Of a stretch of DNA of 51,617 nt, positions 6,757 to 45,241 are shown in pieces (position 1 is the stretch's first letter; every line of letters starts with the position of its first letter). This DNA comes from Gammaproteobacteria bacterium. GTDB taxonomy: Bacteria; Pseudomonadota; Gammaproteobacteria; UWMA-0217. The stretch is taken from assembly GCA_026981985.1 (NCBI GenBank), contig JALSHZ010000106.1, positions 1 to 51,617 on the forward strand, written 5' to 3'. The notes beneath the pieces are model-generated. The model ran no database searches and was not told the DNA's origin. It was given only the letters and a program-made list of their open reading frames with translations. A program made the position numbers and the translations under genes.

Positions 6757-7524
6757 CTATCGCAAGCTGCGTGTGCCGGCGATGATGTCAAGTTTGTGCA
6801 GGCGGGTGAGCGTTTGCAGGCCCCCGTCGATGACGCGTTGTGGCTCGGGGTGCCGAAGTTCCATGGCGATGGTTTCGAGCAGCGCCTGGCCGCTGTCATT
6901 TTCGTTGCTGTCGAGCAGCTGGAACAGCCGTGCGGTCACCGCGTTGGCCTCGATGAAGCCGACGGCATCGTTGCGGTCGCGGTAGACGATAATATGATTG
7001 GGCTGTTCCAGTGGCTCCTCAGGCTGGAATTCGGCGCTGATATGCTGTACCGGCCACTGGTAACTCAACAGCCAGGCGGTCGGGCTGAGGACGGGTACGC
7101 TGGACAGCAGGTTGCCGTTGCGATCGACACTGGAAAAATCGATGGTTTCATCCAGGACGCCCAGCGCCAGCTCAACCCATTCATAATGTGCCAGCTCCAG
7201 TAGAAACGGTGGGTCACTGTCCGCTGGCTCATAGCCATTGTTCAGAAATATAAGAAACTCTTCCGCAATCTTGGCGAAGTAAGGCGTTTTACAGTGATGA
7301 TTGGCAAAAAACTGGCGCGCGAGGCGAAGCCACTCGTCGTCGCAATACAGTGACCGCAGTACGGGAAAGCCATTTTCCAGAAAAGAATTGATGTTGTTGA
7401 AGAATAGATCGCGATAGATCGCCATGCGGCGGTCTTCGATATTGTCGGGTGCCGGAACGCCGGTCGGCTTGCGGATATGGGCGCAGAAATGTTGCTGGAT
7501 CTGCTGGAACGGCTGTTCAGCCAT
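6757..7524 (-). CDS. hvfC: DUF2063 family protein, HvfC/BufC-like partner of the MNIO enzyme
   Basis: This 255-residue protein opens with the DUF2063 pattern (FQQIQQHFCAHIRKP, then RMAIYRDLFFNNINSFLENGFPVL). It continues with LLELAHYEWVELAL and a C-terminal half rich in short helices. In bufferin and HvfA-type systems the DUF2063 partner binds the precursor and helps the DUF692 oxidase act on it. The start codon overlaps the 3' end of the DUF692 gene by 8 nt, showing tight translational coupling. No catalytic motif is visible, in line with an accessory role. The symbol follows the Haemophilus operon by analogy of gene order and family. Confidence 0.85.
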   Translation of the reverse strand: MAEQPFQQIQQHFCAHIRKPTGVPAPDNIEDRRMAIYRDLFFNNINSFLENGFPVLRSLYCDDEWLRLARQFFANHHCKTPYFAKIAEEFLIFLNNGYEPADSDPPFLLELAHYEWVELALGVLDETIDFSSVDRNGNLLSSVPVLSPTAWLLSYQWPVQHISAEFQPEEPLEQPNHIIVYRDRNDAVGFIEANAVTARLFQLLDSNENDSGQALLETIAMELRHPEPQRVIDGGLQTLTRLHKLDIIAGTRSLR

Positions 7525-8365
7525 TGGCTACTCCGTGTTGCAAGTAACTTTGCTGGATCTGGCGTACCTGGTGAACCTCGGCCATCATTTCATTGGTCGG
7601 GGGGATATTGAAGTCCCGCTCGATCAGCGTCGGGAATATCCCAAACCGATCATAGGCGATATCGAGCAGGTTCCAGACAGGGTCGATGATATCAGCGCCA
7701 TGGGTATCGACAATCAGATCTTCCGCTTCCTGGTGGTGGCCGGCGATATGGGCATAAGCGATGCGCTCGCCGGGCAGCTTGCGCAGAAATTCTGCTGCAT
7801 CATAGCCATGGTTGACTGAATTGACATAAATATTATTGACGTCCAGCAGCAGGTCGCAGTCGGCCTCTGTCAGCACGGCATTGAGAAAATCGATTTCCGC
7901 CATCTCCTGGCCGGGGGCGGCGTAGTAAGACACGTTCTCCATTGCGATACGCTGTTCCAGGATATCCTGAACACGGCGAATTCTGGCCGCTACATAGCTG
8001 ACCGCTTCTTCAGTAAAGGGGATTGGCATCAGGTCATAGAGATGACCGCTATCAGAGCAATAGCTGAGGTGTTCGCTGTAAAGCAGAATGTCATGCTCTT
8101 GTATGAACGCCTTGATGGCGCTCACCAGGTCTTCATCGAGTGGGGCGGGGCTGCCGATGGAGAGCGACAGGCCATGCGTCACAAACGGAATGCGCTCGGT
8201 GTAGCTTCTGAACTGCTTGCCGAATTTTCCGCCAATGCCAATCCAGTTTTCCGGTGCAACTTCCATGAAGTCGATGGACTGAAGATGGGTGTTCGAGAGC
8301 TCATCAAACATTTCCCGGCGCAGGCCAAGGCCCGTTCCGGAGACTAGAAATTGTTGCGTGCTCAT
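7517..8365 (-). CDS. hvfB: Multinuclear non-heme iron oxidase (DUF692/MNIO), HvfB-like
   Basis: This is the DUF692 (MbnB/BufB/HvfB) TIM-barrel family. Likely iron ligands lie in the conserved motifs FMEVAPENW, VTHGLSLSIG, YSEHLSY, AMENVSYY, LLLDVNNIYVN, AHIAGHH, DTHG and LIERD. Characterised relatives use a two- or three-iron centre and oxygen to convert cysteine-containing motifs of a partner peptide into copper-binding heterocycle/thioamide groups. The start is placed at the ATG at 8365 (MSTQQFLVSGTGLGLR, 282 aa). A TTG 13 codons earlier would add a non-homologous stretch that approaches the hairpin at 8409-8432. The gene follows the EGKCG precursor and precedes the DUF2063 partner on the same strand. 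Confidence 0.9.
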   Translation of the reverse strand: MSTQQFLVSGTGLGLRREMFDELSNTHLQSIDFMEVAPENWIGIGGKFGKQFRSYTERIPFVTHGLSLSIGSPAPLDEDLVSAIKAFIQEHDILLYSEHLSYCSDSGHLYDLMPIPFTEEAVSYVAARIRRVQDILEQRIAMENVSYYAAPGQEMAEIDFLNAVLTEADCDLLLDVNNIYVNSVNHGYDAAEFLRKLPGERIAYAHIAGHHQEAEDLIVDTHGADIIDPVWNLLDIAYDRFGIFPTLIERDFNIPPTNEMMAEVHQVRQIQQSYLQHGVANG

Positions 8366-8408
8366 GGTGATGATTCCGGAAATGGAAATGGGCGGTTGAG
8401 TCAATAAG

Positions 8409-8432
8409 GGCGGATCAGGAGCCTGATCCGCC
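8409..8432 (-). terminator. Intercistronic hairpin between hvfA and hvfB (candidate attenuator)
   Basis: GGCGGATCAGG (8409-8419) and CCTGATCCGCC (8422-8432) are perfect 11-bp inverted arms separated by 2 nt, so the RNA would be a 10-bp GC-rich stem with a tetraloop. On the minus strand it is followed by CTTATTGA, a weak U tract. Placed 18 bp after the precursor stop, it could end most transcripts and allow partial read-through into the modifying enzymes, or protect the precursor mRNA. Confidence 0.6.
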
Positions 8433-8450
8433 GCTCGTAAGGATGTGGGG

Positions 8451-8921
8451 CTATTTATTGCCGCCGCATTTCCCTTCCATGGCTTTGCCTTTCATATCAC
8501 CGCCACACTTTCCTTCCTTTGCCTTATCCATCATGTCGCCACCGCATTTTCCTTCCATGGCTTTGTCCTTCATTTCAGTGGCTTTACCTTTCATATCGCC
8601 GCCGCATTTGCCCTCACCACATTTCCCTTCCATGGCCTTGCCTTTCATGTCGCCGCCGCACTTGCCTTCGCCACATTTTCCTTCCATGGCTTTGCCTTTC
8701 ATGTCGCCGCCGCACTTGCCTTCGCCACATTTTCCTTCCATGGCTTTACCTTTCATGTCGCCGCCGCATTTTCCTTCCATCGCGACCTGGTAGCCGGAGG
8801 ACAGCTCGGTCATACCGAACGGGTTGCTGTCGGCATTCGCATTGGCCATCATGATGGTGGAAGAGGCCAGGGTAACGCCAAGTGCCAGCGCCATGTGTGA
8901 TTTGGATGATTTGTTAGTCAT
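8451..8921 (-). CDS. hvfA: HvfA-like metallophore RiPP precursor with ten EGKCG motifs
   Basis: This 156-residue secreted peptide has a signal sequence (residues 1-30, cleavage after MANANA) and then a spacer NPFGMTELSSGYQVA resembling that of HvfA-type precursors. A low-complexity core from residue 49 follows. I count ten EGKCG pentapeptides, six of them as three EGKCGEGKCG doublets, joined by GDMKGKAM-type linkers. In Haemophilus influenzae HvfA, the EGKCG cysteines become copper-binding oxazolone/thioamide pairs through HvfB and HvfC, and both partners are encoded directly downstream here. The expected product is a periplasmic or secreted copper-binding peptide. The core is encoded by 54-bp tandem repeats. 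The start at 8921 has a purine-rich AGAGAGA upstream. Confidence 0.88.
   Translation of the reverse strand: MTNKSSKSHMALALGVTLASSTIMMANANADSNPFGMTELSSGYQVAMEGKCGGDMKGKAMEGKCGEGKCGGDMKGKAMEGKCGEGKCGGDMKGKAMEGKCGEGKCGGDMKGKATEMKDKAMEGKCGGDMMDKAKEGKCGGDMKGKAMEGKCGGNK
8587..8748. repeat. Three 54-bp tandem repeats inside hvfA
   Basis: Three consecutive in-frame 54-bp units lie at 8587-8640, 8641-8694 and 8695-8748, each encoding 18 residues with an EGKCG doublet and a DMKGK linker. The second and third units differ only at their last base (g versus a). The first unit differs from them at several positions. This implies a recent duplication by slippage or recombination. Shorter related units flank the block on both sides. 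Confidence 0.9.
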
Positions 8922-8963
8922 TCGGATTCTCTCTCTTGATTAAAAAGTTTGGTGTTTTCATCT

Positions 8964-8990
8964 GACGCTCGTGTCAGAGAAAGCGGTTAT
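8964..8990 (-). promoter_or_regulatory. Candidate ECF-sigma promoter of the hvfABC operon
   Basis: Reading the minus strand, ATAACC (8990-8985) is followed after 17 nt by CGTC (8967-8964). AAC-type -35 and CGTC-type -10 elements with 16-17-nt spacing are typical of ECF sigma factors. The inferred start site would give a 5' leader of about 35 nt before the hvfA ATG at 8921. The -10 overlaps an imperfect inverted repeat (CTGAC...GTCAG, 8962-8977). Related bufferin operons are known to be under ECF control, but no sigma gene is in the window. Confidence 0.4.
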
Positions 8991-9026
8991 GAGGTGGTAA
9001 TGCACGAAGCCGGCGGAATGGGGTAG

Positions 9027-9052
9027 GTTGGGTAAAGCGCAGCGTGCCCAAC
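9027..9052. repeat. REP-like palindrome
   Basis: GTTGGG (9027-9032) and CCCAAC (9047-9052) flank AAAGCGCAGCGT. This strongly resembles the widespread extragenic palindromes of the GGTTGGG...GCGCAGCG...CCCAAC type in beta- and gammaproteobacteria. It lies between the end of the DUF1841 gene and the hvfA promoter and might end read-through from the rnf-nth transcript. Confidence 0.5.
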
Positions 9053-9142
9053 AAGTCCACTGATAGCCTTTTCTTCATGAGCCACCCGGTCCCGGAATTT
9101 ACGCCGTGTTGTTTGCGGTAGATGCACGGTGTTCCATCGGCA

Positions 9143-9565
9143 CTACAAAAGTTTACGAATGCATTCGAGATAAGCCAGCTCATCAGGTGGCCGGTTCTCG
9201 CGTTGCGATGTCCATAGCATCGTGCCGAGGCACTCCATCATCCGGTGTTCCGCGTCGGATGCGCCCAGCTGCTCAACCAGCCGGGAATGGAGTGCGGCGA
9301 TGCCAGCTGGCCGGTCGATACTGGCTTGTTCCCGGATCGCAATGTGCATGCCCATGTGCAGGTAGGGATTGGTCTGCCCGTTGTCGATGCCATATTCCTG
9401 TTGTGCGGCCTGATCCGGCGCTTTCAGCAGGTCATGGTATTCGGGGTGGAGCAGAATTACATCCAGCAGCATTCGTTCCATCGGTTCCAGTGGTTGTCCG
9501 TTCAGGTGCTTCAAGAATACCTGACTGTAGAACATCCGCATCTGATCGCGATCCTGGAACATCAA
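9143..9565 (-). CDS. DUF1841 family protein
   Basis: This 140-residue soluble protein opens with DRDQMRMFYSQVFLKHLNGQPL and contains LHPEYHDLL and NPYLHMGMHIAIREQ, the pattern of the DUF1841 family found in beta- and gammaproteobacteria, often beside nth or rnf genes. Function is unknown. No signal peptide, membrane segment or catalytic motif is evident. It lies 46 bp after nth on the same strand and probably ends the rnf-nth transcription unit. Either of two adjacent ATG codons (9565, 9562) could be the start. Confidence 0.8.
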   Translation of the reverse strand: MMFQDRDQMRMFYSQVFLKHLNGQPLEPMERMLLDVILLHPEYHDLLKAPDQAAQQEYGIDNGQTNPYLHMGMHIAIREQASIDRPAGIAALHSRLVEQLGASDAEHRMMECLGTMLWTSQRENRPPDELAYLECIRKLL

Positions 9566-9611
9566 TTAAACAGGAAATGCTGTGGGAAGTTTTCCCGGAA
9601 AAGAAAGTGGC

Positions 9612-10262
9612 TCATTGTTGCTCCGTACAGGGTTCTGGTTTTTTTCGGTATTCGCAGAGATCGCAGATGATGCACTGGCCACAGCGCGGTTTTCTGGCGA
9701 TGCAGGTATAGCGCCCCAGCAGTATCAGCCAGTGGTGTGCATCCTTGAGAAATTCTTCAGGAATGAACTTCAGCAGTTTTTTTTCTACTTCCAGTGGGGT
9801 TTTTCCCGGTGCAATGCCGGTACGGTTTGCCACACGAAAAATATGGGTATCAACGGCCATCGTGGGATGGCCAAAGGCGGTATTGAGCACGACATTGGCG
9901 GTTTTGCGCCCAACCCCGGGGAGCGATTCGAGCGCCTCGCGGTTGTCAGGCACCTGGCTGTCGTATTGCTCGACCAGCAAGCGGCTGGTGGCAATGATGT
10001 TTTTGGCTTTCGTGTTGAACAGGCCAATGGTCTTGATGTATTCCTTGACGCCATCTTCACCCAGCGCCAGCATTTTTTCCGGTGTGTCGGCGACTTGAAA
10101 TAGTTTTTCGGTTGCTTTGTTGACACCTTTGTCGGTGGATTGTGCCGACAGAATCACGGCCACCAGCAGTTCAAAAGGATTGCTGTAATTGAGTTCTGTG
10201 GTGGGGTGGGGGTTGGCTGCCCGTAGCCGGGAAAATATTTCGTATCGCTTCTGGCGGTTCAT
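9612..10262 (-). CDS. nth: Endonuclease III (DNA glycosylase/AP lyase)
   Basis: This 216-residue protein matches E. coli Nth in length and features. The helix-hairpin-helix [13 protein letters not shown] carries the catalytic lysine, the catalytic Asp is in [13 protein letters not shown], and a C-x6-C-x2-C-x5-C iron-sulfur loop ([11 protein letters not shown]...C) lies at the C-terminus. It removes oxidised pyrimidines from DNA and cuts the abasic site. Its ATG overlaps the rnfE stop by 4 nt, the usual rnf-nth linkage in gammaproteobacteria. Confidence 0.95.
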
Positions 10263-10954
10263 TTTTCAGCAGCGGGGTGGAAGGTGAGTGGGAATTCCTG
10301 CACCTTGGTACTGCGTTTTTCCATCCGCTTGTCGATCAGATTCTTGATCGCCAGAAGAATACCAAGGCCGAGAAAGGCGCCCGGTGGCAATATGGCCAGC
10401 AAAAAACCGCTGTGGTCCTGGGCAAGGACGATATGCACATCGCGGAAGGACTCGCCCAGCAGCATATGCGCACCGGAAAAGATGGTTCCCCGTCCTAGCA
10501 CCTCGCGCATCGCGCCCAGTACCAGTAGCACGAGCGTAAATCCGGTCCCCATGGCGAGGCCATCGACAAATGCCAACGGCACCGCGTTTTTTGATGCGTA
10601 GGCTTCAGCGCGGCCAATAATGGCGCAGTTGGTGACAATCAATGGGATGAAAATGCCGAGCGTTTTATAGAGGTCGTAGAACCAGGCTTGCAGGATCAGT
10701 TCGATGGCGGTAACGGTGGAGGCGATGACCAGCACGAACACCGGAATCCGAATCGCGGAAGTCACCACATTGCGAATCAGTGAAATAATGGTGTTGCTGA
10801 AAACCAGCGTCAGCGTGGTGGCGATACCCAGCCCGAGGCCATTGACTGCTGTGGCTGTTACCGCCAGCAGCGGACAAAGCCCCAGCAATTGTACCAGGCC
10901 CGGGTTGTTCTTCCACAAGCCTTCCTTGATCAGATGGTGAATTTCATGGTTCAT
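10259..10954 (-). CDS. rnfE: Rnf electron transport complex subunit E
   Basis: RnfE is an integral membrane subunit related to NqrD, with about six helices. Family motifs include [21 protein letters not shown] at the start and [21 protein letters not shown] mid-protein. The conserved Cys residues in LGLCPL and TNCAI help bind the intramembrane iron-sulfur cluster shared with RnfA. The start is set at 10954 ([12 protein letters not shown], 231 aa) because it matches the family start and overlaps rnfG by 11 nt. An upstream codon at 10993 would overlap rnfG by about 50 nt. Confidence 0.93.
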
Positions 10955-11585
10955 CGTGATTCTCCCGAGCGAATACCTCGTCGCGATGTGCATTGAAATA
11001 CAATAGCGTCTTTTTCACTGTATTGACGACCAGGCGCGGGGTAATGGTTGCGCCCGTGAACTGGTCGAAAACGCCGCCATCCTTTTTTACCGCCCAGCGT
11101 GACAGTGGTGGATCACCGATCGACCGACCGGAAAAGCGCAGGATCCAGTCGCTGCGTTCGACTTCGATGCCGTCACCGAGCCCCGGTGTTTCACGATGCT
11201 CCAGCGCCCGTACGCCCAGCAGGCGGCCGTCGATGCCAATCCCGATCATCAACCGGATTGGCCCGGCGTAGCCTTCCGGCGCGGTGGTTTCAAAGGCGGC
11301 GGCCACCGGCTGGCCGTTGTTGCGCGCGCGATAGACGATGGTTGGGAATTTTGCCGAAAATACGGGGTCATCGATCAGAATCGAGTCATTCAGCAAGTCG
11401 TTATCGTGGATCTTGGGGGGAATGACCGCGTGCAGGCTTCGCAGCCGTGCCGCGATAATCGAGGCTTCGCGTTGGTCACGGGTATATTTCTCCACTGTCG
11501 CCACCAAGCCGGCACCCGCCAGACCGAAGGCGCCGAGAATCAGTGCGGTGGAGATGACCTTGCCCTTGATGCCCATGCTGCTCAC
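10944..11585 (-). CDS. rnfG: Rnf electron transport complex subunit G (flavoprotein)
   Basis: This 213-residue protein has one N-terminal membrane helix ([20 protein letters not shown]) and a periplasmic FMN-binding domain. The flavinylation motif is [11 protein letters not shown], in which the threonine of GAT receives FMN by a phosphoester bond. [15 protein letters not shown] is a second family signature. It passes electrons between RnfD and the rest of the complex. The start overlaps rnfD by 4 nt (ATGA). Confidence 0.93.
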
Positions 11586-12610
11586 CGCTCCCCATACACC
11601 CGGGGACGGGTATATTCGTCAATCATCGGTGCTGCCATGTTCATCAGCAGGACGCCAAATGCGATGCCGTCGGGATAGCCGCCCCAACTGCGGATGACAA
11701 AGGTAATGGTGCCAACCCCGATGCCAAAGAGCAGCCGGCCCAGCGGTGTCGTGCTGCCGGAGACTGGATCGGTGGCGATGAAGAATGCGCCCAGCATCGC
11801 ACCGCCGCCCAGCAGCTGATAGAGCGGCGAGCTGAAATATTCCGGGTCATACAGTGAAAATACAGCGGACAGCAGCCCCAGTGCTGCCAGCAGGCCAACC
11901 GGCACCTGCCAGTCGATAATGCCTTTCCATAGCAGCCACAGACCACCGAGCAAAAACGCGATCGAAATCCACTCCCAGCCCTCGCCAGCCAGCAGGCCGA
12001 AAGGAATCTGATCCTGCATTTCACTGATCGACTCGCCAAGCCGGAGCCCGCTGCGCACCGTATCCAGCGGCGTTGCCGCAGTAATGGCATCCCAGTCCAG
12101 GCCCGGCGGAAATTCGCCCGTGAACGTCACTCGCAGTGCATCGCTCAGGCCAAGATGGAAGTCGGCCAGCGTGGTTGGTGCCATCCAGTTGGTCATGGTG
12201 GCCGGAAAGGAGATCAGCAGCACCACATAGCCGACCATTGCGGGGTTGAACGGGTTGTAGCCCAGTCCGCCGTAGAGCTGTTTGGCAACGACGATGGCAA
12301 AGAACACGCCAATCGTCAGCAACCACCACGGCGCCAGTGGCGGTAGCGCCAGCACCAGCAACCAGGCTGTCACGACGGCGCTGTAGTCGCTGATGACCGG
12401 CACGACGGGACGCCGGCGGATGGCAAGAATCAGCGCCTCGAACCCTACCGCCAGCAGTGTCGCCACGACTAGGTTGATCAAAACCCCCCAGCCAAAATAC
12501 CAGCTGGCCACGGCGATTCCCGGTAGCAATGCCAGCAGCACCTGACGCATCAGGCGGCTGACGTCGTTGACGGGTGGCAGATGGGGCGAACTGTCAATCT
12601 GGAATTTCAC
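11582..12610 (-). CDS. rnfD: Rnf electron transport complex subunit D
   Basis: This 342-residue polytopic membrane protein is homologous to NqrB. Marker motifs are SSPHLPPVNDVSRLMRQVLL at the N-terminus, GGLGYNPFNPAMVGYVVLL in the middle and DPVSGSTTPLGRLLFG near the C-terminus, where the covalent FMN site is expected (usually SGATTP, here SGSTTP). It forms part of the membrane core coupling electron flow to ion translocation. Its start overlaps rnfC by 4 nt. Confidence 0.93.
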   Translation of the reverse strand: MKFQIDSSPHLPPVNDVSRLMRQVLLALLPGIAVASWYFGWGVLINLVVATLLAVGFEALILAIRRRPVVPVISDYSAVVTAWLLVLALPPLAPWWLLTIGVFFAIVVAKQLYGGLGYNPFNPAMVGYVVLLISFPATMTNWMAPTTLADFHLGLSDALRVTFTGEFPPGLDWDAITAATPLDTVRSGLRLGESISEMQDQIPFGLLAGEGWEWISIAFLLGGLWLLWKGIIDWQVPVGLLAALGLLSAVFSLYDPEYFSSPLYQLLGGGAMLGAFFIATDPVSGSTTPLGRLLFGIGVGTITFVIRSWGGYPDGIAFGVLLMNMAAPMIDEYTRPRVYGER

Positions 12611-39655: not shown

Positions 39656-40297
39656 GTGAAGAAGTTGACACATGCAATGAAGGCGGCCGTGTTTGTCGCT
39701 GCAACAGCCTTCCTTGTCAGTAGTTGTGCAACAGCTCCTTCCGGGAGTGAGGGGTCTGGTTCAGCTGCCGCCAGTCAGGTCGCTGAGGCGAGCACTGTGG
39801 CTGACGACCTGATCTATACGATTCAGCCGGGAGACAAGCTGTACATATCCGTCTACAACGAAGAAGAGCTGCAAAAGGATATCGTCGTTCGCCCTGATGG
39901 TGGTATTACATTTCCGTTGATCGGTGATGTCGACGCCAACGGAAAGACGATCTCGGAGCTGCGTCAGGAGATCACTGCAAGGCTGAGTCAGTACATTCCC
40001 GATGCAACGGTTTCGGTGTCGCTCAAAGAGGTCATCGGCAACAAGATCTTCGTCCTCGGTCAGGTCAAGAATCCGGGTGAGTACGTGTTGACCGGTGATA
40101 TCGATGTGTTGCAAGCGTTGAGCATGGCGGGCGGGCTGACGGCCTTTGCCAACAGCAACAAGATCAAGGTGCTGCGCCGCGACAAGGTGACGCACAGCAA
40201 GAAGGTGATTCCATTCAGCTACAAGCGGGTCATGCGCGGGGAAGATCTGGAGCAGAACATCACGCTTCGCAGTGGTGATACGGTGATTGTGCCGTGA
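39656..40297 (+). CDS. Polysaccharide export lipoprotein (Wza/EpsE-like, XrtA type)
   Basis: This 213-residue protein begins at GTG. It has a lipoprotein signal (lipobox LVSSC at about residue 24), a Poly_export domain (IYTIQPGDKLYISVYNEEELQK, VRPDGGITFPLIGDV) and an SLBB domain (KIFVLGQVKNPGEYVL). It forms the periplasmic/outer-membrane channel for exopolysaccharide. Compared with Wza (379 aa) it is short, as is usual for export proteins of XrtA/PEP-CTERM loci. It heads a five-gene run on the plus strand. Confidence 0.9.
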   Translation: MKKLTHAMKAAVFVAATAFLVSSCATAPSGSEGSGSAAASQVAEASTVADDLIYTIQPGDKLYISVYNEEELQKDIVVRPDGGITFPLIGDVDANGKTISELRQEITARLSQYIPDATVSVSLKEVIGNKIFVLGQVKNPGEYVLTGDIDVLQALSMAGGLTAFANSNKIKVLRRDKVTHSKKVIPFSYKRVMRGEDLEQNITLRSGDTVIVP

Positions 40298-40317
40298 CAA
40301 TAACTTTGGGGTGCCGC

Positions 40318-41493
40318 ATGGTGGGGAATAATAGAAAGCTAGCGGGAAACATTGCATTGTTTCCTTTCGCCGCTCTCCTGATCGCCGTGGGAAGTTCGGC
40401 ACAGGCCGACTGGGCGGTCGAACCCTTCGTCAATACTTCCCTGGTGTTCGACGACAATATCCGTTTCTCGACGACGGATGCACAGTCTTCGACCGGCCTG
40501 GCTGCGAATGCGGGTGTCGTCATCAGCAACGAAACCGATGCGGTCAAGACCCGAGTCGAGCCGAGAGTCTCTTACCGCTCCTATGCAGAAGACTCAGACC
40601 TCAACTCGTTTGACCAGTATCTGAGCCTGTCCACCACCTCGTTCGGTGAGCGAAGCGATCTGGGATTGGATCTTTCGTTCGCCAACGACAGCACGCGTAC
40701 CAGTGAGCTGGAAGACTCTGGCATTACCTTTATCAACAAGCGAAGAACCTATTTTTCAATGGCTCCATCGTGGCGCTATCTGTTGACCCAGCTGACGTCG
40801 GTCAAAGTCAGATATCGCTTCGAGGGATCCCAATACGAGGACTCCGGCGAAAATGGTCTGAACGACTTCGAGAATCAGAATGCGACGGTTGATTTTGAAC
40901 GGCGTCTCAGTGAAGAAAGTGATTTCGTTGTACGTGGGTATTACCAGCGTTACAAGGTGCTGGAGTTGACCAACAAGGCAAGTAGCCTGGGGCTGGAACT
41001 GGGTTACAAAAAACGGTTTTCGCCTCGCCTGGAAGGCGGTTTCTTCGTGGGTGGTGTGAACACTGAGTCGACGACTGAAGGAAAGGACGATACAAGCTCT
41101 GGGGGATCGGGAAGTGTGAGCCTGATTTACAAAGGTGAGACGGCGCGGTACTCAGGGAAATACCGCCTGGGCGTCGTGCCCAGTTCGACTGGTGTCGTGT
41201 ATCTGCAGAATAGAATCAGTGCGTCTGTCGATAGTCGAATCAATGAAAAGCTGTCGTGGAAACTCAGTGCGCTGGCGCAAAACCGCGAGACACTCAGCGA
41301 CAACGCAACACAGTCAGATCGCTTGTATTACAGCGTTTCCCCGAGTATTTCCTGGCGCATGAAAAAAGACTGGCGGCTACAGGCGCGATATACCTTCGCG
41401 GCCGAAGATCGAAACGATGACAGTGGTACCGCCAATAGAAACCAGGTTTATGTTGGCGTGGAGTATCGAAAAGCCAGATTGACGGTGTACTAA
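40318..41493 (+). CDS. Exopolysaccharide-associated outer-membrane beta-barrel protein
   Basis: This protein of about 391 residues has a signal peptide (ending SSAQA) and then DWAVEPFVNTSLVFDDNIRF. A run of alternating amphipathic strands follows, ending in YVGVEYRKARLTVY with a C-terminal aromatic residue, as in outer-membrane barrels. The WxxxPxxxxxxxYDDN-like opening is shared by the TIGR03016-type/EpsL-like barrels of EPS loci. Probable role: outer-membrane passage or anchoring of polymer. The start is set at ATG 40318, with GGGG 6 nt upstream; an earlier GTG at 40294 overlaps the previous gene. Confidence 0.75.
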   Translation: MVGNNRKLAGNIALFPFAALLIAVGSSAQADWAVEPFVNTSLVFDDNIRFSTTDAQSSTGLAANAGVVISNETDAVKTRVEPRVSYRSYAEDSDLNSFDQYLSLSTTSFGERSDLGLDLSFANDSTRTSELEDSGITFINKRRTYFSMAPSWRYLLTQLTSVKVRYRFEGSQYEDSGENGLNDFENQNATVDFERRLSEESDFVVRGYYQRYKVLELTNKASSLGLELGYKKRFSPRLEGGFFVGGVNTESTTEGKDDTSSGGSGSVSLIYKGETARYSGKYRLGVVPSSTGVVYLQNRISASVDSRINEKLSWKLSALAQNRETLSDNATQSDRLYYSVSPSISWRMKKDWRLQARYTFAAEDRNDDSGTANRNQVYVGVEYRKARLTVY

Positions 41494-41569
41494 TACGCCG
41501 TTTTTCCGTTTATGAACCATTCTCGGTTTTCCTGAGGACGGATTCAATATTTATCAAGAGAATAGCAAT

Positions 41570-43384
41570 ATGAATGCAGCGGTAGAACATAATCAGGGCA
41601 TCGTGGTTGAACAGGAAGCGAGCCTCAGTGACTACATCGCCATTGTCCGCAGAAGAAAAGGTATCTTTTTTGCGGTATTCGCCCTGGTCACGACGATCGC
41701 AGTCGGATTGGCCTTGGCCTTGCCACCGGTCTATCGTTCGACAGCGACGATTATGATTCAGCAACCCTCTGCGGTGACGTCGGAGTTTGCTGGTGGTATC
41801 GAGCCATCGGTAGAGCAGATGGTGGAGTCGATCGTGCGGTCTGTGCTGATCAAACCCAATTTGTTGGCCATTGTCGATAAATACGATCTCTATTCCGAGC
41901 ATCGTGAAACCGTTCCGCGGGAAGCGCTGGCAAGAAAGCTCGAGAAAGCAATCAACGTCAGTATGTTGAATCCTGAAGTTGGAAACCTGGGGAAAGGTCG
42001 AAAGAAGGGGTCAATGGCCATGGAATTGTCGTTCGAAATTCAGAACGACCCACAGATGGCTCAGCAGATCGTCGCCGAGCTTGCCGAGCTTTTCCTTCGC
42101 GAGAACGACGTCAAGCGTAAAGAGGCATCCGGCAAAACAACCGGATTTCTCCGCCAGGAAGCTGAAAAGCTGGAAAAACGGTTGGCTGAGATCGAACACG
42201 AGATGACGGCGTTCAAGGAGAAAAACCTGGGGATCTTGCCTGAGCAGATGTCGATGATCATCTCAGAGCAGGAGCGTACCGAGCGGGAGCTGCTGGGCGT
42301 TCAGCAGCAGATCCAGTCGATCCGCGGCAGCATAATCCAGTTGCGGGGACAGCTGGCAGGCACCAAGCCATTCATCTATGAAGATCGAACATTGATCAGA
42401 AATGAAGAAGGCGAAAAGGTGCTGAGTGCGACCGGCCGGCTGCAAACACTCCAGCAGGAGTATCACTCGCTTATTTCTAAATATTCGCCAAGTCACCCCA
42501 AGGTTCGTAAACTCAAGCGAGAAATCGAGTCATTGGGCGGCAGTGTGGATGCTGCATCAGCCAGCCCGTTGGTCAGTGACAATCTCGAAATCGCACGGGT
42601 CGAGTTGGCGGAGGCGTTGCAGAAATATTCGCCAACGCATCCGGAAGTGAAACGCTTGCAGGCAAAGGTCTCCCGGCTGGAAAGACAGGCTTCATTGATT
42701 ACGCCGCAAACCAGTGCAAAAGAATTCAACACCCTGCGCCGTACAAACCCGGTGTTCTCAAGTCTCAAATCGGGGATTGCATCGGGCGAGGCGGAACTGG
42801 CTTCATTGAATGCCCGCAAGGCGGAACTCCAGGCCAAACTGGACAGCTATTCAGGTCGCCTCGAACTGGCGCCGCATGTAGAGCAGGAATACAACCGAAT
42901 CAAGCGCCAGTACGATGATACGCTCAAGGAACTGACCACTATCAGGAGCAAATTGAGTGCCGCCGAACGTGTTCAGGCGCTGGAATCATCCGATACCAAC
43001 GAGCGCTTCACCTTGCTTGAGCCGCCAGAGTTGCCAGGTGGGCCAGTCAAGCCGAATCGGCCCGCCATTATGGCCCTGGGTATGCTACTGGGGCTCGGTC
43101 TGGCATTCGCGGTCGTGATGCTGCTGGAAAGCCTAGATGAAAGTATCAATGGCCCGAAGGCGCTGGCTGCAATAACCGGGGCGCGACCTTTGGGTACCAT
43201 CCCCGTTATTCTGTCTCATGCAGAGGCGGCGGTTTATATCAGAAACCGCCGGTTAAAGCTGGCTGCTATCGCAGTTGGGGCGATTGCACTGGCAGCACTG
43301 CTTGGCTGGGGCTTTTCAGAAGACGGCCCGCTGGCGCCAGCATGGGAAGCTTTCAAGGCGTTGGTGGCCAAACGAACGTTTTAG
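41570..43384 (+). CDS. Polysaccharide chain-length determinant (Wzz/GNVR family)
   Basis: This 604-residue inner-membrane protein has an N-terminal Wzz domain (DYIAIVRRRKGIFFAVFALV, helix about residues 28-50) and a large periplasmic coiled coil. A membrane helix follows at about residues 500-522 (AIMALGMLLGLGLAFAVVML), with a second near 565-582. The coiled coil contains a duplicated motif, KYSPSHPKVRKLK at residue 304 and KYSPTHPEVKRLQ at residue 352. Such proteins set polymer length with a partner tyrosine kinase, encoded next. An ATP-binding kinase domain is absent, so kinase and co-polymerase are split here. Confidence 0.9.
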   Translation: MNAAVEHNQGIVVEQEASLSDYIAIVRRRKGIFFAVFALVTTIAVGLALALPPVYRSTATIMIQQPSAVTSEFAGGIEPSVEQMVESIVRSVLIKPNLLAIVDKYDLYSEHRETVPREALARKLEKAINVSMLNPEVGNLGKGRKKGSMAMELSFEIQNDPQMAQQIVAELAELFLRENDVKRKEASGKTTGFLRQEAEKLEKRLAEIEHEMTAFKEKNLGILPEQMSMIISEQERTERELLGVQQQIQSIRGSIIQLRGQLAGTKPFIYEDRTLIRNEEGEKVLSATGRLQTLQQEYHSLISKYSPSHPKVRKLKREIESLGGSVDAASASPLVSDNLEIARVELAEALQKYSPTHPEVKRLQAKVSRLERQASLITPQTSAKEFNTLRRTNPVFSSLKSGIASGEAELASLNARKAELQAKLDSYSGRLELAPHVEQEYNRIKRQYDDTLKELTTIRSKLSAAERVQALESSDTNERFTLLEPPELPGGPVKPNRPAIMALGMLLGLGLAFAVVMLLESLDESINGPKALAAITGARPLGTIPVILSHAEAAVYIRNRRLKLAAIAVGAIALAALLGWGFSEDGPLAPAWEAFKALVAKRTF

Positions 43385-43464
43385 TCTGGCTTCGCAGGAA
43401 ACATAAGGTCTGGTTGCTGATATCGATGTTAACCGACCGAATTTGAAATTATCAGAGTTCAACC

Positions 43465-44283
43465 ATGAAAAAAATTGTCAAGGCAGTAGAAAAACGCAGG
43501 CAGGAATTTGGGGGTGTTGGTGGTCTCGGAGGCTATGGCCTTTCAGGTGGCAGCAGGCGCAATGATGTCGAAATCAATCGCGTCGCACTACAGGACGAGG
43601 TGTTGCGCAAGAACCGTGTGCTGTTTGGTGACCAGATGGAGTCTGCGACGATGGCATACAACATGCTGCGCACCCAGGTCTATAAACAGATGACCAGTAA
43701 TGGCTGGACCACGCTGGCGATTACCAGTGCCAACAAGTCGGAGGGGAAGTCGCTGACAGCCGTGAATCTGGCCGCCAGTCTTTCGCGCTCGGTGCAGCAG
43801 ACTGTGGTGCTGGTTGACCTTGATCTGCGTCGGCCATCGATGCACAAGAAACTCAATATATCACCTTCCAATGGCATGAGTGATTTCTTTGCCGGTGACG
43901 CACGTCTGTCGTCGATCATGTTCAAACCTGAAAAGAGCGATTTGGTCGTGCTGCCCGGTAAGGAGTCATTGGAAAACGCCTCCGAGTTGCTGGCATCCCA
44001 AAAAACGCCCGCGCTTTTTGCAGAACTAAAGAGGATGTTTCCAAGCCGTATCGTCGTGCTTGATTTACCCCCTCTCTTACTGGTGGATGATGTCATGGTG
44101 CTGGCGGACTACATCGACTGTTCGTTATTGGTCGTATCTGAGAGCATGAGCAAGAAGGAAGAGCTCCACCAGGCAGTGGAATTGCTACAGGGGACGAATA
44201 TTCTCGGTACGGTTCTCAATAATTCCCGGTCCAATATGTCTGGTGGTGGTTACGACTATTACTATGGTTATGATGCCGACTAA
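43465..44283 (+). CDS. Capsular/EPS tyrosine autokinase (CpsD/CapB-like)
   Basis: This 272-residue BY-kinase has a Gly-rich N-terminus, then LRTQVYKQMTSNGWTTLAIT. A Walker A variant SANKSEGKSLTAVNLA (usually PGEGK[ST]) and Walker A' VVLVDLDLRRPSMHK follow, with Walker B IVVLDLPPLLLVDD. It ends in a tyrosine cluster GGYDYYYGYDAD, the expected autophosphorylation site. It should pair with the chain-length protein upstream to control polymerisation. The gene starts at ATG 43465, 80 bp after its partner. Confidence 0.88.
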   Translation: MKKIVKAVEKRRQEFGGVGGLGGYGLSGGSRRNDVEINRVALQDEVLRKNRVLFGDQMESATMAYNMLRTQVYKQMTSNGWTTLAITSANKSEGKSLTAVNLAASLSRSVQQTVVLVDLDLRRPSMHKKLNISPSNGMSDFFAGDARLSSIMFKPEKSDLVVLPGKESLENASELLASQKTPALFAELKRMFPSRIVVLDLPPLLLVDDVMVLADYIDCSLLVVSESMSKKEELHQAVELLQGTNILGTVLNNSRSNMSGGGYDYYYGYDAD

Positions 44284-44359
44284 AGCACATATCCAATGAC
44301 TTTCGGGTGATAGCGCCGCTGTTGCCCCAATTCTCGAATACAACCACGAGTGGTTTACC

Positions 44360-45241
44360 ATGTACGAAGCTTTTTACAATTTCAAAGAAAAGCCATTTTC
44401 GCTGCTTCCAGACTCCGATTTTCTCTATCTTGGTGATCGGCACCAGGAGGCACTGTCATTGCTGGAGTATGGACTCATACAGGGTGCTTCGATTGTGCTG
44501 ATTACAGGTGAGATCGGCTGTGGCAAGACCACGCTGGTCAGACATCTGATCAAGAATCAGGATCTCGACATGATCGTCGGGAATATCACCAATACCCATC
44601 AGTCATTCGGCGAGCTGCTGAAGTGGGTCATGCTCGCGTTTGACCTCGAATTTCGTGACCGGGACAAGGTGGAGCTCTACCGCGACCTGATGGAGTTCCT
44701 GCGCGCCAAGTACCACCAGGGCAAGCGCGTGACACTCATTATCGATGAAGCGCAGAACTTGAGCATGGAAGGGCTGGAAGAGTTACGGATGCTCTCCAAT
44801 ATCAATGTCGACAAGGAGCAGATGCTGCAAATCATTCTTGTCGGGCAGCCGGAACTGCGTGAAGTCCTTAGAAAGGCTGAGTTACGTCAACTGGCGCAAA
44901 GAGTGGGTGTCGATTATTTTCTTGATGCCATGAATCCAAAAGAGGCGTTCGAGTATATTCGTCATCGTGTTGAAATCGCGGGTGGAAATCCTGAGCTGTT
45001 CGACCTCGAAGCGATTAGGGAGATCTATTTGCACAGTAACGGCGTACCTCGCCTTATCAATACGATCTGCGATACCGCACTGGTGTATGGATACGCGGAG
45101 CAGGCAAAAACGATCACCGGGAAACTGATTGAAGAGGTCATCCGCGACAAGAGTCAGGGACATATTCTTCCTCTGCACAATGACGCAGCCATGCCCGCGG
45201 CTGTCACTTCTGATTCGCCGGTGCATATCAGCATCGGCTGA
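44360..45241 (+). CDS. AAA ATPase of the EPS locus (ExeA/GspA-like, XrtA-associated)
   Basis: This 293-residue ATPase opens MYEAFYNFKEKPFSLLPDSDFLYLG, the standard start of ExeA-like ATPases in XrtA loci. Walker A is ITGEIGCGKTTLVRHL, Walker B VTLIIDEAQNLSMEGLEELR, and sensor region IILVGQPELREVLRK. A C-terminal winged region (HSNGVPRLINTICDTALVYGY) follows. The role in EPS export is unknown. It is the last gene of the operon; the next plus-strand gene is sbcC, not a polysaccharide gene. Confidence 0.88.
   Translation: MYEAFYNFKEKPFSLLPDSDFLYLGDRHQEALSLLEYGLIQGASIVLITGEIGCGKTTLVRHLIKNQDLDMIVGNITNTHQSFGELLKWVMLAFDLEFRDRDKVELYRDLMEFLRAKYHQGKRVTLIIDEAQNLSMEGLEELRMLSNINVDKEQMLQIILVGQPELREVLRKAELRQLAQRVGVDYFLDAMNPKEAFEYIRHRVEIAGGNPELFDLEAIREIYLHSNGVPRLINTICDTALVYGYAEQAKTITGKLIEEVIRDKSQGHILPLHNDAAMPAAVTSDSPVHISIG

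Follow-up and report, generated by a model that had tools for sequence, protein, structure and literature searches.

An hvfABC operon with a ten-motif EGKCG precursor in an uncultured gammaproteobacterial lineage

Background

Among the closest known relatives of the operon described here is the HvfABC (oxazolin) system of Haemophilus influenzae, in which an EGKCG precursor with a signal peptide is accompanied by the MNIO enzyme HvfB and the DUF2063-RRE protein HvfC. The modification of Haemophilus HvfA was first reported as an oxazolone/thioamide and was later revised by NMR to a 5-thiooxazole, which has also been assigned to fontiphorin and gonophorin and is installed by MNIO-PME1 pairs (PMC13097082). 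A 2026 preprint from the Haemophilus group describes six 5-thiooxazoles, a mixed-valent diiron cofactor and a requirement for HvfC; HvfA without its signal sequence is poorly modified, and the signal peptide acts as the leader (PMC13419390).

The captophorins fontiphorin (FonABC, from Fontimonas thermophila) and gonophorin likewise combine EGKCG repeats with an MNIO-PME1 pair. A mass loss of 8 Da, or about 4 Da per modified cysteine, was observed with two repeats. Fontiphorin binds up to four Cu, gonophorin also binds Cu, and a role in sequestration has been proposed; related pathways are induced by copper excess, gold or oxidative stress (PMC13097082). In Microbulbifer, the comparable MmrABC (bulbicupramide) cluster again encodes a precursor, an MNIO and a DUF2063 protein, with paired EGKCG units, and a copper-protective role has not been established (PMC12538549). 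A survey of approximately 2,000 EGKCG precursors, the Buf_EGKCG or oxazolin bufferins, found lengths from 31 to 506 residues and a 17-residue repeat that contains two motifs; one published member has as many as 58 cysteines (PMC12452194). The locus considered here is an ordinary member of this recently described and widespread family, in which a secreted copper-binding peptide is encoded with two modifying proteins. It extends the confirmed occurrence of a known RiPP system for copper handling to a further lineage of uncultured gammaproteobacteria.

Operon content and identity

The window, meaning the whole stretch of 51,617 nucleotides that was analyzed, carries three genes of interest on its minus strand. 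The gene hvfA (8451..8921) encodes the precursor, a 156-residue protein with ten EGKCG motifs and a predicted Sec signal peptide. It is followed by hvfB (7517..8365, with its ATG at 8365), encoding a 282-residue MNIO (DUF692) peptide maturase, and by hvfC (6757..7524), encoding a 255-residue DUF2063-RRE partner. The latter two genes overlap by 8 bp, and both this overlap and the A-B-C order are as in the described clusters. All three proteins are named as HvfA-, HvfB- or HvfC-type by NCBIfam models. No other such locus exists in the 3.35-Mb genome, which contains one MNIO, one HvfC and one EGKCG precursor; neither a second copy of the system nor a stand-alone MNIO is present elsewhere.

An earlier note on this DNA had placed a precursor, an MNIO and a DUF2063 protein together on one strand at 6757-8921 and had described them as an HvfABC-type copper metallophore RiPP locus. 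The locus is real and its coordinates are right, and the family call is backed by curated models and by the literature: in searches against the DUF692, DUF2063 and HvfA families, PF05114, PF09836 and NF050137 all score above their cut-offs. The oxazolone/thioamide chemistry offered in the note has since been superseded by the 5-thiooxazole (PMC13097082, PMC13419390), and the novelty of the locus was overstated.

The precursor

The hvfA reading frame encodes MTNKSSKSHMALALGVTLASSTIMMANANADSNPFGMTELSSGYQVAMEGKCGG..., in which there are exactly ten EGKCG pentapeptides, as had been counted previously. A degenerate DNA pattern for EGKCG has 10 matches in the 51.6-kb window, all within hvfA, compared with 0 matches in 100 shuffles of the window, and it is found nowhere else in the 3.35-Mb genome. 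The motifs run along the protein as 1,2,2,2,1,1,1, giving three EGKCGEGKCG doublets and four isolated motifs. It had been claimed that most motifs lie in doublets; six of ten do, barely a majority, and the other four are isolated. The core (8454..8777, minus strand) combines a doublet repeat of 54 bp (18 residues) with a one-motif unit of 39 bp (13 residues); the published repeat of the Buf_EGKCG bufferins also contains two motifs but is 17 residues long.

The N-terminus, judged by eye, is Sec-like: a K-rich start (KSSKSH) precedes the hydrophobic stretch MALALGVTLASSTIMMA, and the predicted signal peptide (residues 1-30; 8832..8921, minus strand) would end between ANA and DS. Directly after this predicted cleavage site is an NPF-x7-GY segment (residues 33-44; 8790..8825, minus strand), a candidate further recognition element for HvfC. 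The spacing from PF to GY is seven residues in 60/60 precursors carrying PF...GY; these precursors were picked by PF...GY itself, with a loose spacing of 4-9, and it is the fixed spacing alone that is informative.

The precursor passes the model for the HvfA-family repeat domain (NF050137; 75 bits, cut-off 19.5) and does not reach that for the strict HvfA equivalog (NF050188; 70.6 bits, cut-off 95), which places it in the broad EGKCG family but outside the strict equivalog. In this it differs from Haemophilus HvfA, which also has other spacers and six motifs rather than ten. FonA has seven modified sites (PMC13097082), and Microbulbifer MmrA has five to eight cysteines (PMC12538549) as against the ten here. 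The precursor has no Pfam match, including to DUF2282 (bufferin 1). Identity as bufferin 1 or bufferin 2 was rejected, given this result and an MNIO that scores below the BufB cut-off. An AlphaFold2 model, made with a four-sequence alignment, has a mean pLDDT of 36.6; it provides no confident structure and neither favours nor rules out the beta-helix proposed for members with 17-residue repeats.

The biosynthesis proteins

HvfB matches the MNIO family PF05114 (MbnB_TglH_ChrH) with 355.5 bits against a cut-off of 25 (2.1e-106) and the HvfB family NF003818 with 449.6 bits against a cut-off of 360. It is below the cut-off on the BufB model (267.6 bits, cut-off 310) and on the ApyH, MbnB and ChrH models, and HvfB type is thus the correct label. 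The nearest solved structure by sequence is 3bww. Among 93 HvfB sequences, 83 positions agree with the window sequence in at least 98% of aligned relatives, and H64, H99, E143, D175, N177, N178, H206, H210, D220, H222 and E249 are near-invariant. These residues are typical of MNIO metal sites, and the metal-binding residues are probably intact; the earlier note had named missing iron ligands as grounds for doubting its reading, and the conserved residues are present. Activity of Haemophilus HvfB requires N175, D242 and H244 (PMC13419390). From 3bww-alignment offsets, we infer that N175 corresponds to N177 or N178, D242 to D220 and H244 to H222.

HvfC consists of a DUF2063 domain (PF09836, 1.5e-27) and an RRE-like C-terminal domain, NGO1945_C (PF22106), both over the cut-off. 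It matches the HvfC family NF050145 with 317 bits (cut-off 142), and its nearest solved structure by sequence is 3dee. Relatives encoding this enzyme pair are abundant: HvfC adjoins HvfB in 80/80 of the best loci from the scan for MNIO relatives.

Motif number and array history

Relatives were taken from the best 80 loci of the MNIO scan, with extra loci from relatives of the genome. From these, 60 precursors with a leader were compared, a set that includes the window and is skewed towards the best matches to its MNIO. Within this set, the strict EGKCG count has a median of 7 and a maximum of 16, with ten or more motifs in 14/60 precursors and exactly ten in 8/60. The comparison drawn earlier with the six motifs of Haemophilus HvfA is correct as to the six, but ten is ordinary, and an unusual motif number was rejected as a feature of this locus, ten being well within the family range (PMC12452194). 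A spacing of 5, which denotes a doublet, is the commonest (182/385 gaps), and doublets are mixed with isolated motifs in 30/60 precursors. Because doublets are the family norm, they imply no special paired geometry here, and the suggestion of one is not supported. Other arrangements also occur: one family member has five EGKCG motifs 16-17 apart with TGKCG after the last, and a further one has triplets.

The nearest relative found, L009/L092, belongs to the same genus, and its HvfB is 78% identical. The two loci have in common the order rnfD-rnfG-rnfE-nth-DUF1841-hvfA-hvfB-hvfC-MFS-cytochrome c-U32 over approximately 9 kb. Recent horizontal acquisition is unlikely, since the same-genus locus keeps the gene order on both flanks. 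In L009/L092, HvfB and HvfC are intact, but all five EGKCG motifs of the precursor stand singly and none forms a doublet. In the window, comparisons among the full 54-bp doublet units of hvfA show just 1, 5 and 6 mismatches over the 54 bases. Such near-identical copies suggest that the array was recently amplified, probably through tandem duplication of the 54-bp unit. The leader and enzymes are thus conserved, whereas the core array evolves rapidly, most simply by tandem duplication; between these two species the array may have either grown or shrunk.

Proposed function

The operon very probably directs synthesis of a captophorin, an oxazolin-like EGKCG bufferin whose cysteines would be converted to 5-thiooxazoles and which would be exported by Sec to buffer periplasmic Cu(I). 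The sequence itself establishes the genes, their family membership, the conserved enzyme residues, the repeat structure and the single copy in the genome. The chemistry, export and copper role in this reading are taken from characterised relatives, among which fontiphorin and gonophorin have been shown to carry 5-thiooxazoles (PMC13097082). In the cytoplasm, HvfB and HvfC would bind the N-terminal part of the precursor, probably through its signal peptide, possibly together with the NPF-x7-GY segment. With an iron cluster and O2, they would convert the EGKCG cysteines to copper-binding 5-thiooxazoles, and the modified peptide would be exported by Sec to the periplasm, where it may sequester Cu(I) and buffer copper stress. 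Periplasmic Cu(I) sequestration is the most likely function, as the best-supported role in the family, and copper storage or detoxification, as proposed earlier, would be the mainstream expectation. The neighbouring genes that were inspected include no copper-responsive regulator, no sigma/anti-sigma pair and no exporter of copper. There is no DoxX gene at the locus; two are located on other contigs. In a scan for sigma-70 promoters and terminators, sites were no more frequent than in shuffled sequence.

It may instead be that the modified peptide is released as a methanobactin-like chalkophore for copper acquisition rather than retained as a periplasmic buffer. Methanobactin is likewise made by MNIO enzymes, and the Microbulbifer products of the same type, for which protection is not established, have been called chalkophore-like. 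Yet no receptor, exporter or TonB transporter adjoins the genes, and related pathways are reported to be induced by excess copper, not by starvation (PMC13097082), so that a released chalkophore seems highly improbable. Somewhat less remote, but still quite unlikely, is a role in other metal or redox stress (gold, oxidative or sulphur stress, for example) to which copper is incidental. Related clusters do respond to gold and oxidative stress, and 5-thiooxazole peptides have been only partly assessed for metal specificity (PMC13097082); copper binding is nevertheless the demonstrated activity of the characterised members.

If only doublets were modified, the four isolated EGKCG motifs would be unmodified thiols or decayed copies, and FonBC did modify a substrate with two repeats but failed to modify one with a single repeat (PMC13097082). 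The single-repeat FonA peptide also differed in being shorter, however, and the sister species L009 maintains intact HvfB and HvfC with five isolated motifs and no doublet. The mixture of doublets and isolated motifs in half of the 60 precursors also argues against such a restriction, which we regard as unlikely. More speculatively, HvfBC in this genus may treat isolated EGKCG motifs as full substrates while the amplified doublets of this genome provide a second, closely paired class of copper site; duplication of the 54-bp unit would then tune the capacity or affinity for copper, with the enzymes and leader conserved. We offer this only tentatively. The array of ten motifs with three doublets and the sister array of five isolated motifs, which occupy one chromosomal position within a single genus, constitute a natural substrate pair for relating motif spacing to modification and copper binding.

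Genomic neighbourhood and related loci

The hvf operon is located directly downstream of rnf-nth on the same strand, often with DUF1841 between, in the window (6757-12610) and in relatives including L009, L012, L021, L022, L028, L030, L038, L041, L042, L065 and others. In 28 of the 55 relatives with a full flank, nth is at most 4 kb upstream of hvf. On the HvfB tree, this link turns up here and there in several groups of gammaproteobacteria, requiring at the fewest 11 changes as against a mean of 20 when shuffled, and well-supported branches force only 3. The scatter would fit an old position that has been repeatedly lost. One search of the literature for DUF692 in connection with endonuclease III was without result.

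Some loci among the relatives depart from the usual content. L013, L014, L015 and L026 encode an HvfB (72% identical) and an HvfC, but a search of these loci for an EGKCG precursor found none; hvfB is preceded in L013 and L014 by a membrane protein that by eye is DoxX-like. In L043 and L074, from methanotrophs (Methylococcales), the same leader type is followed by EGSCGEGMCG-type and SCGAMMKGKEGACG-type cores in place of EGKCG arrays, and no EGKCG array was found at several other methanotroph hvfB loci. In the precursor reading frames of L020 and L093, EF-hand-like segments are flanked on either side by EGKCG motifs; the EGKCG family is known to include EF-hand fusions, which have been described as C-terminal to the EGKCG domain (PMC12452194). 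Elsewhere in the window (39656-45241), Poly_export/SLBB, Wzz-like, ParA-like and AAA ATPase genes form an apparent exopolysaccharide cluster.
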